Source: Clostridiales bacterium
Lineage (GTDB): Bacteria > Bacillota > Peptococcia > DRI-13 > UBA5745
Direction of reading: 5' to 3'
Assembly: GCA_009777025.1 (NCBI GenBank)
Contig: WRMS01000003.1
Location: forward strand, 1-36,176
DNA length: 36,176 nt
Positions 8,671 to 26,775 of this stretch are shown one piece after another. Below the pieces are notes generated by a model. The model did not search any database and was not told the origin of the DNA. It saw only the letters and a program-made list of their open reading frames with translations. The translations under genes were made by a program, and so were the position numbers. Numbering within the stretch: position 1 is the stretch's first letter; each line of letters begins with the position of its first letter.

Positions 8671-9127
8671 ATATGATCCACAAGAAATAGAGCGATGAAG
8701 GGGATAAAGTTCCGTACTCGGCGCTTCAGAGAGCTGTCGGATGCTGCGAGACAGCGGCCTGTACAGAACATAACTCACCCCGGAGCTTCCCGCCCGAAAG
8801 GATTGTCCGCAAAAAAGACAAGCAGCGAGTCTGTGACGCAGGATTTTTTGGTACTGGCAAGGCAAGCGACGACAGATGGGAAGGAGCATACACGATGGTA
8901 TGTGACTGAGCAGATGGAGGACGCGGACGCAGCCAGGAGCAAAAAAGACAAGTCAGAGTAGGGGGGACGGTGATCCCACCGTTATCAAAGGACCAGCATT
9001 ACCTGAGCCTATCAGACGATGCCGGATAAGAGGGCGGCGAAGACCCGCCAAAGAGAGTGGTACCGCGGAAGTTGAGCTTTCGTCTCTCACTGTTTTACCT
9101 GACAGTGAAGGACGAAGGCTTTTTCAT
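8671..9127 (+). ncRNA. T-box leader, predicted Leu (CUC) specifier, with intrinsic terminator
   Basis: Stem I GATGAAGGGGATAAAGTTC..AGAGAGCTGTCGGATGCTGCGAGACAGCGG..GAACATAACTCACCCCGGAGC. GUUC/GAAC and GGGG/CCCC bracket the loop AUAACUCA (specifier CUC 8774-8776). T-box motif GAGAGTGGTACCGCGG (9053-9068). Confidence 0.85.
9077..9125 (+). terminator. T-box intrinsic terminator
   Basis: CTTTCGTCTCTCACTG..CAGTGAAGGACGAAGG followed by CTTTTTC. Confidence 0.8.
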
Positions 9128-18565: not shown

Positions 18566-18626
18566 TCCCTCCTCAACAATAAAATAACAAAGCCAATCGT
18601 ACCATAGTTTCCATAAAATCACAACT

Positions 18627-18710
18627 GCATATTCAGAAGTTGTGCATATTCAGAAGTTGTTTTTCTCAGAGAGTGTTTTTCTCAGAGAGTGTTTTTTTCA
18701 GAGAGTGTTT
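18627..18710. repeat. Two stacked short tandem repeats
   Basis: GCATATTCAGAAGTTGT x2 (17 nt; 18627-18660), then TTTTTCTCAGAGAGTG x ~3 (15-16 nt; 18661-18707). Confidence 0.85.
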
Positions 18711-18714
18711 TTTA

Positions 18715-24726: not shown

Positions 24727-24910
24727 GGCGGACGACGCAGACAACACAGATAACGCCGTATGGCGGAATAAGAACAAGCTGTTAAGTCTGGCGAAGGAAT
24801 TATTTTGCCAGACAAGGCGTCAAGGAAGGCCGTCGAAGGAGTGTATCCAAACATACATGACTGAGGCGGACGACGCAGACAACGCCGTATGGCGGAATAA
24901 GAACAAGCCA
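24727..24910 (+). repeat. Intergenic structured repeat, group 1 (one full and one partial unit)
   Basis: GCGGACGACGCAGACAAC..CGCCGTATGGCGGAATAAGAACAAGC..CTGGCGAAGGAATTATTTTGCCAGACAAGGCGTCAAGGAAGG..GGAGTGTATCCAAACATACATGACTGA, then restarts at ~24862. Confidence 0.9.
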
Positions 24911-24927
24911 GAAAGGATTGGATTGAA

Positions 24928-25116
24928 ATGGGCGTACAACAACACCGTCACTCGAAAGCCAGGGTACGGAGGAGCCGCGCGGTGGTCATGAAAATGCAGA
25001 CCCCCAAATTCGTGGAATGCCCCAAGTGTCATGAGTTTAAGATGCCTCATCGACTCTGTCCGTCGTGCGGTTATTATAATGACCGTATCACGGTTCCGGT
25101 TAAGAACGAGGACTGA
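24928..25116 (+). CDS. rpmF: 50S ribosomal protein L32
   Basis: MGVQQHRHSKARVRRSRAVVMKMQTPKFVECPKCHEFKMPHRLCPSCGYYNDR. Confidence 0.96.
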   Translation: MGVQQHRHSKARVRRSRAVVMKMQTPKFVECPKCHEFKMPHRLCPSCGYYNDRITVPVKNED

Positions 25117-25134: not shown

Positions 25135-26121
25135 ATGAAGATCGCTTTGGACGTCATGGGCGGCGATCGCGCGCCGGATGAAATCCTGATCGGCGCCAAG
25201 GAAGCCTTAACTTCATTGGAAGAATTAGAATTGCTACTTGTCGGGGACAGGGGAGCCATATTGCAACTCTGGCCTGAGGCGGAGTCAAATCCCAGAACCG
25301 AGATCGTGCATTGTACGGAAGTCATCGAAATGCAGGAATCTCCGGCGGCCGCATACCGCAGAAAGAAAGACGCTTCTATCACGATCGCCTCAAGACTGGT
25401 GAGGGATCAGGAAGCGGAAGCGGTGGTTTCCGCCGGAAGTACAGGCGCTCAACTGGTGGCGGGCTTATTTGAGCTTGGACGCATGGAAGGCGTTGCCCGT
25501 CCGGCGATTGCCACATGTATACCGACGCTGCGAGGGCCGAGAGTGATGTTGGACGTCGGCGCGAATACGGACTCCTCTACGGAGAATCTCCGGCAATTCA
25601 GCTGGTTGGGAAAGATTTACTGCGAGATTGCGCTGGGCATTCGAAATCCAAGAGTCTACTTATTGAGTAACGGCACAGAGCAAGAAAAAGGAAACGAGTT
25701 GACGGTCAATACCTATCAGGTTCTGATGGCGGAAGAAGGCTTGGGTTTCTGTGGTAGCATTGAAGGCAGAGACTTGTTCAACGGAGAAGCGGACGTCATC
25801 GTTACGGATGGTTTTGCCGGCAATGTTGCGCTTAAGACCATGGAAGGAACTGCAGAAGCGCTGTTTACGATGATGAAAGAAGCATTTCGGAAGAGTGCGC
25901 GCAGTAAGCTTGGCGCCTTCCTGCTCATGCCGGCGCTGAAGAAAGTCAAGAACAGTCTGGACTATGAGGAAATCGGCGGCGCCCCTTTGCTTGGCGTCAG
26001 AGGACTCAGCGTAGTATGTCACGGCAGTTCCGGCGCAAAAGCGATTTGCGCGGCGCTGATCAAGACAGCCCAATGGATCGAATCCGGGCTGCAGGAGAAA
26101 CTGGCCGCCAATAAATTTTAA
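25135..26121 (+). CDS. plsX: Phosphate acyltransferase PlsX
   Basis: MKIALDVMGGDRAPDEILIGA...VSAGSTGAQLVAGLFELGRMEGVARPAIATCIPT...LLGVRGLSVVCHGSS. Confidence 0.97.
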   Translation: MKIALDVMGGDRAPDEILIGAKEALTSLEELELLLVGDRGAILQLWPEAESNPRTEIVHCTEVIEMQESPAAAYRRKKDASITIASRLVRDQEAEAVVSAGSTGAQLVAGLFELGRMEGVARPAIATCIPTLRGPRVMLDVGANTDSSTENLRQFSWLGKIYCEIALGIRNPRVYLLSNGTEQEKGNELTVNTYQVLMAEEGLGFCGSIEGRDLFNGEADVIVTDGFAGNVALKTMEGTAEALFTMMKEAFRKSARSKLGAFLLMPALKKVKNSLDYEEIGGAPLLGVRGLSVVCHGSSGAKAICAALIKTAQWIESGLQEKLAANKF

Positions 26122-26210
26122 TGAAATAATCGGATTCCGGTCAAAAACAAGCCGGAAAGTATTGACCGATGCATAGCAACTTGTTATTCTGAATTGAAGC
26201 AAATGCAAAA

Positions 26211-26530
26211 CGATGACACACCGTATGGTGTAAAGCAGACAACGCCGTATGGCGGAAAAAGAGCAAGCCGTTTAAGTTTGGCGAAGAAGTTTTTTCGCCA
26301 GACAAGGCGTCAAGGAAGGTCGGTGAAGGAGTGTATTCAGACATACATGACTGAACCGAACGACGCAGACAACGCCGTATGGCGGAAAAAGAGCAAGCCG
26401 TTTAAGTTTGGCGAAGAAGTTTTTTCGCCAGACAAGGCGTCAAGGAAGGTCGGTGAAGGAGTGTATCCAGACATACATGACTGAACCGAACGACGCAGAC
26501 AACGCCGTATGGCGGAAAAAGAGCAAGCCA
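26211..26530 (+). repeat. Intergenic structured repeat, group 2 (two full 130-nt units plus partials)
   Basis: GCAGACAACGCCGTATGGCGGAAAAAGAGCAAGCC at 26235, 26365 and 26495 (exact 130-nt period), near-identical interior TTTAAGTTTGGCGAAGAAGTTTTTTCGCCAGACAAGGCGTCAAGGAAGG. Confidence 0.95.
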
Positions 26531-26544
26531 AAGGGGGTGGCGAT

Positions 26545-26775
26545 GTGAGCTTATCTGACCAAATCAAATCTATTTTGTCCGCCCATTTAAGCGTTGAGCC
26601 GGATGATTTGACTGATGGCACGAGTTTTGACGATCTGAACGCGGACTCCTTGGATGTGGTGGAAATTATTATGGCGCTGGAAGAGGAATTTGACATTGAG
26701 ATTCCTGATGAGGACGCCGAAAAAATACGTACAGTCGGAGACGTCACGGAATATATCAAAGAGCGCATCAACTAG
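26545..26775 (+). CDS. acpP: Acyl carrier protein
   Basis: [67 protein letters not shown] phosphopantetheine site. GTG start after AAAGGGGGTGG. Confidence 0.95.

Follow-up and report, generated by a model that had tools for sequence, protein, structure and literature searches.

Several small repeats of Bacteria resemble the hairpin described here. The ERIC sequences of enterobacteria (also called IRU or RU-1, 127 bp) are intergenic and non-autonomous, have a similar length and form a long hairpin; they are co-transcribed with neighbouring genes and their orientation matters (PMC2229807). They differ by their hosts, their 7-bp ends and their TA termini, and no shared nested MITE form is mentioned for them (PMC2229807). 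The Correia or NEMIS elements of Neisseria are MITEs, and their RNA hairpin has been proposed as a cleavage substrate of RNase III (PMC2229807). They have 24-bp TIRs and TA ends, whereas the clostridial family has a separate structured core, which is found either inside TIRs or alone. The BOX elements of Streptococcus pneumoniae are modular, with variable tandem units, lie beside genes and are strongly folded when transcribed (PMC3049150); they are built from boxA-boxB-boxC modules, whereas in the clostridial family one hairpin is repeated between direct copies of a sequence which we call R. ERIC, NEMIS and BOX are analogues in kind only, set apart by their hosts and ends. YPAL (RU-2) of Yersinia is a 168-bp palindromic element with targets in or adjoining dyad symmetry (PMC2229807), but its inverted repeats are internal, its target duplications are 3-26 bp long and its hosts differ.

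In the window, the whole stretch of 36,176 nt which was analysed, Rfam gives no match at the gathering threshold; the best sub-threshold match of a permissive search is RT-17 (E = 1.6). Literature searches returned analogues and no description of this hairpin family, and nucleotide searches of plasmids and phages gave no match. The family is uncatalogued, being absent from Rfam and from the literature found; in the preliminary description of the window, too, no family had been identified by eye. We consider it quite probable that the repeats, which lie among fatty-acid and ribosome genes in an uncultured clostridial bacterium, are non-autonomous mobile hairpin elements of one family and that their folded strand is under selection.

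Repeat units of the window and their neighbouring genes

The features of the window are the following:

8833-8956, + strand: fourth hairpin copy, TGAC/GTCA outer-stem subfamily (covariance model, 117.5 bits)
24745-24787, + strand: left R copy and spacer of the yceD-rpmF unit (repeat search)
24788-24911, + strand: hairpin unit in the yceD-rpmF spacer (covariance model, 103.0 bits)
24928-25116, + strand: rpmF, ribosomal protein L32 (Pfam PF01783)
25135-26121, + strand: plsX (Pfam PF02504)
26162-26190, + strand: promoter-like TTGACC-17-TATTCT upstream of acpP (conserved in three relatives)
26212-26234, + strand: degenerate R-like stretch with ACACC-GTAT-GGTGT (by eye, weak)
26235-26269, + strand: R copy 1 (GCAGACAACGCCGTATGGCGGAAAAAGAGCAAGCC), lone left copy (repeat search, reading of the sequence)
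26278-26401, + strand: hairpin unit 1 of the acpP-leader array (covariance model, 102.8 bits; TRF array)
26290-26303, + strand: R* arm TTTTTTCGCCAGAC of unit 1, partner of R 26365-26399 (helix 2, 92% of cells paired)
26408-26531, + strand: hairpin unit 2 of the acpP-leader array (covariance model, 105.6 bits; empty-site alignment)
26460-26477, + strand: apical stem of unit 2, GTGTAT-loop-ATACAT (alignment; pair 26462-26477, E = 0.0045)
26545-26775, + strand: acpP, acyl carrier protein (Pfam PF00550)

TRF finds a tandem array at 26235-26529 with a period of 130, 2.3 copies and 99% matches. A repeat search of the window gives 130-nt copies which start at 26235, 26365 (99%) and 24745 (68%), and shorter copies of 46 nt at 24734, 24863, 26223, 26353 and 26483. 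The recurrence at 26235, 26365 and 26495 noticed in the preliminary description is therefore borne out. The R copies at 26365-26399 and 26495-26529 supply units 1 and 2 with their 3' arms; the R* arm of unit 2 is found at 26420-26433, and unit 2 ends at the ribosome-binding site of acpP, AAAGGGGGTG. On the yceD-rpmF side there is a single diverged unit (24745-24911). The array and this unit had been listed before; the full copy at 8833-8956, which has the highest covariance-model score in the window, had been overlooked. Its neighbours are an oxidoreductase gene and an AMP-binding enzyme gene (Pfam), and a lone R-like stretch, CAAAAAAGACAAGC, precedes it. YceD, L32, PlsX, acyl carrier protein and RNase III (rnc) are all matched in Pfam, in agreement with the names rpmF, plsX and acpP given earlier to the genes around the repeats. 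Short tandem repeats are also present at 18626-18713, with units of 16-17 nt and about four copies of TTCAGAGAGTGTTTTT.

Fold of the unit and its paired changes

The unit is one long imperfect hairpin of about 120 nt with conserved internal loops. From the outside inwards it has an outer stem NNNC/GNNN, an internal loop GCAGGA/GACAA, a 15-bp pair of arms R*/R, a second internal loop AAGGC/ACGCAG, short stems and an apical stem GYGTAC-loop-GTACRT. The 15-bp arm is TTTTTCGTTTCTGGC/GCCAGAAGCGAAAAA; its version in the window is TTTTTTCGCCAGAC/GTATGGCGGAAAAA. Against dinucleotide shuffles the fold has z = -9.2 for two units and z = -6.8 for one. In five loci of two relatives (L120, L121, L127, L133 and L134, in G003 and G004) a further hairpin-like stretch of about 45 nt, CTCAATCTGCTATCCGNAGATA...GGGCGCAAATG, is inserted between core and R arm.

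Two small hairpins in each unit had been proposed earlier. The sequences quoted for them are present, ACACC-GTAT-GGTGT at about 26218-26231 and CTGGCGAA..TTTTGCCAG at about 24788-24811, but the conserved structure is the single long hairpin and both small ones are local alternatives in the subfamily of the window. The arm GCCGTATGGCGGAAAAA of hairpin 1 pairs instead with TTTTTTCGCCAGAC, across the unit. Other subfamilies have GCCAGAAGCGAAAAA in place of this arm, which cannot form hairpin 1 and still pairs with TTTTTCGTTTCTGGC. Comparison of the subfamilies rules out hairpins 1 and 2 as conserved units.

For the paired changes we used 23 core sites of the host and of related genomes, aligned by sequence alone. 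With the outer stem included, standard pairs occupy 90.1% of the cells (74.8% when shuffled) and changes on both sides are found in 151 cells (49 when shuffled). The outer stem varies from copy to copy and is 100% paired. The covariation score is 0.480, against 0.199 in shuffled alignments and 0.07-0.11 with slid partners, a control which flatters the structure since it was drawn by eye on the same alignment. A tree-aware G-test with APC correction was applied to 33 copies (MAFFT alignment, FastTree tree); in its null the inferred substitutions of each column are dropped again on the tree, which approximates R-scape and is not R-scape itself. Six pairs have E < 0.05, all nested in one helix. 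In the coordinates of unit 2 they are 26410-26529, 26462-26477, 26411-26528, 26448-26491, 26420-26520 and 26457-26482; two of the six belong to the outer stem, which was absent from the model tested. The shape of the hairpin is kept by paired changes. The preliminary description had suggested selection on a DNA or RNA fold, to be checked by covariation in many copies, and had named beforehand what would speak against it: no covariation, or a known MITE or Rfam family that explained everything. Significant pairs were found, and no such family.

The two strands of the element are not equivalent. As RNA, the named strand gives the more stable fold of the two in 84 of 86 copies (44/45 free-standing copies of family f1, 16/17 of family f10 and 24/24 MITE cores). 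All 23 of 23 copies keep the three tandem GA/GA motifs of the apical part, where a G.U pair is invariant too; in unit 2 the invariant tandem G.A motifs flank the apical stem. On the complement the G.A and G.U positions become T.C and A.C mismatches, so the constraint is on one strand, either as RNA or as single-stranded DNA. The family is a clear example of selfish repeats with a folded strand that appears to be selected.

An objection to this reading is that correction by template switching from arm to arm of a palindrome can give paired changes without selection. The repeats would then be neutral palindromes, and their arms are indeed well matched yet different between copies, as quasipalindrome correction predicts. 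Such correction leaves, however, the strand asymmetry and the fixed G.U pair unexplained. Covariation is also found at the apical stem, inside imperfect helices, the sense strand is favoured nearly throughout, and correction would remove invariant non-Watson-Crick positions such as G.A and G.U. We consider a neutral origin of the fold very unlikely.

That the units are translated into short peptides, or serve as a leader cistron (AAGGAG followed by RTGACTGAG), is hardly credible. Nearly all copies have, some 14 nt ahead of an ATG or GTG, an AAGGAG or GGGAG which resembles a Shine-Dalgarno sequence, but both motifs lie within the paired apical stem, frame and stops vary between copies and the indels are not in threes. 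Peptide coding was rejected because the frames are not kept; the repeat is a non-coding, structured, intergenic sequence, as it was first described.

Distribution of the family and its MITE form

A strict core pattern has matches only in the family of the host (2 of 399 genomes of the phylum). The covariance model R1 finds a wider spread, so that the narrow range is a limit of the strict pattern and not of the hairpin family. With E ≤ 0.01, E-values which rest on a short calibration, R1 gives about 170 copies in 16 of the 47 genomes of the class: 41 in G001, 20 in G005, 17 in G035, 14 in G006 and 8 in the host (G000). Among the 399 phylum genomes there are matches in three further genomes, which belong to other families; as judged by eye, the element is found directly before a tRNA gene in one of them and before a 5S rRNA gene in another. 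In G124 a related hairpin (L233, 582-666) lies shortly upstream of a 5S rRNA gene and is preceded by a weaker second copy. The closest named PlsX proteins are those of Clostridiales bacterium Nt197P3bin58 (75%) and of Clostridia bacterium SM1-B15.1 and R1-B15.2 (71%).

In sister genera a version of the hairpin of about 104 nt, with the same internal loops, is the centre of elements of 166-169 bp with inverted ends. They are found in G005 and G006, and this form also occurs among the copies of G001, G003 and G004; an example of the long inverted arm is TTAGGACTTGTTAAACAATAACCTG. Pairs of TIRs are 166-169 bp apart in at least 12 loci, and the elements are short and non-coding: they are classical MITEs, a form which had gone unnoticed in the preliminary description. 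Most complete copies which we read have TAA on both sides as a target-site duplication, and one has CTAG; two copies have about 110 extra internal bases. The loci read around the TIRs, where contigs often end in these repeats, showed neither a transposase nor an autonomous element with such ends. At least in this form, the copies would have spread by a transposase acting in trans. The free-standing copies weigh against the main reading: those of the window have an outer stem of only 4-11 bp, and the free-standing copies, these included, show no proven target duplication.

The fold might also be a single-stranded DNA hairpin recognised by a transposase, like REP/RAYT or the ends of IS200/IS605, with its presence in RNA incidental. 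It is strand-specific, sheared G.A pairs are also possible in single-stranded DNA, the hairpin sits at the centre of the MITEs, and antisense and convergent copies occur, above all in family f10. But it is internal to the MITE and not at its ends, the invariant G.U pair and the many other G.U pairs favour RNA, the free-standing f1 copies are mostly sense to the surrounding genes, and no HUH-type partner gene was identified in a non-exhaustive search. We find this possibility rather unlikely.

Genomic sites and possible role as RNA

The comparison with empty orthologous loci which had been recommended earlier was possible in three relatives that have no acpP array. They have in common with the window a promoter-like TTGACC-17-TATTCT (or TATCCT) and a ribosome-binding site AAGGGGGTG, with nothing of the array in between. 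Because the array of the window is placed between these two sites, its hairpins are probably transcribed, as RNA within the predicted 5' leader of acpP. In the yceD-rpmF spacer a decayed element is present in G001 (27 bits) and none in the other two relatives.

Each hairpin is flanked by direct R copies. In the rplE-rpsN spacer the host has two units and R, and G002 has only R and TTTTGGCGA-GCCAAAGGAGG; in the rpmC-rpsQ spacer G003 has a full element, and the host and G002 each have a lone R. Such turnover of R copies at orthologous sites would fit slippage between them across the hairpin. Replication slippage between the direct repeats could add units, as in the 130-nt arrays, or delete them, leaving lone R copies.

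One site has been retained over a long time. Four species of two genera, G000, G002, G004 and G005, share an antisense copy at one position in the rplF-rplR spacer (L002:146-270 of G000 C99, L017, L183 and L203). The sequences of these copies have diverged, with a mean column identity of 78%, which includes the near-identical pair of G000 and G002, yet the fold is kept, at -71 to -85 kcal/mol in each.

About 35 free-standing f1 copies are sense to the following gene versus about 5 antisense sites; the counts are approximate, as they come from rough ORF calls and from translations inspected by eye. The sense copies usually end less than 20 nt from the following start codon. The f10 copies are for the most part antisense to the gene that comes next, or convergent with it, and have their end at its stop codon; in L169, L172, L184, L189 and L230 the 3' end of the hairpin is within about 3 nt of the stop codon of such a neighbour. 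In L173 and L185, from two f10 species, the hairpin is directly upstream of an RNase E/G-like gene, whose product could act on such hairpins.

These positions bear on another explanation, a cis-acting regulatory or processing RNA which has been domesticated in translation operons and now spreads mostly vertically. Copies adjoin rpmF, rpsN, rpsQ, rplN, rplX, rplT, rpsP, tRNA and 5S genes, although this enrichment was judged by eye; the rplF-rplR site is kept in its four species and the site upstream of the RNase E/G-like gene in two. Most sites, however, differ between species, many copies lie beside unrelated genes and the acpP array is absent from the three relatives compared. We find this explanation unlikely.

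For a mobile hairpin with a selected strand, the likeliest effect as RNA would be double-strand processing, or insulation of the downstream ribosome-binding site, by analogy with what has been proposed for NEMIS and ERIC. It is also conceivable, though in our view rather unlikely, that the hairpin is an RNA module which travels alone and as cargo of MITEs, with a selected strand-specific fold containing three tandem G.A motifs, and that a dedicated protein, which binds or processes it, mediates a cis effect on the transcripts of ribosomal-protein, tRNA and acpP genes.

Selection on the folded strand and the presence of the same hairpin both free-standing and inside MITEs set this family apart. 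Whether small bacterial repeats are passengers or carriers of a selected RNA structure is rarely testable. With its many and diverse copies, compensatory changes, strand asymmetry and long retention at a ribosomal-protein site, the family is well suited to asking how mobile hairpins come to be incorporated in mRNAs.
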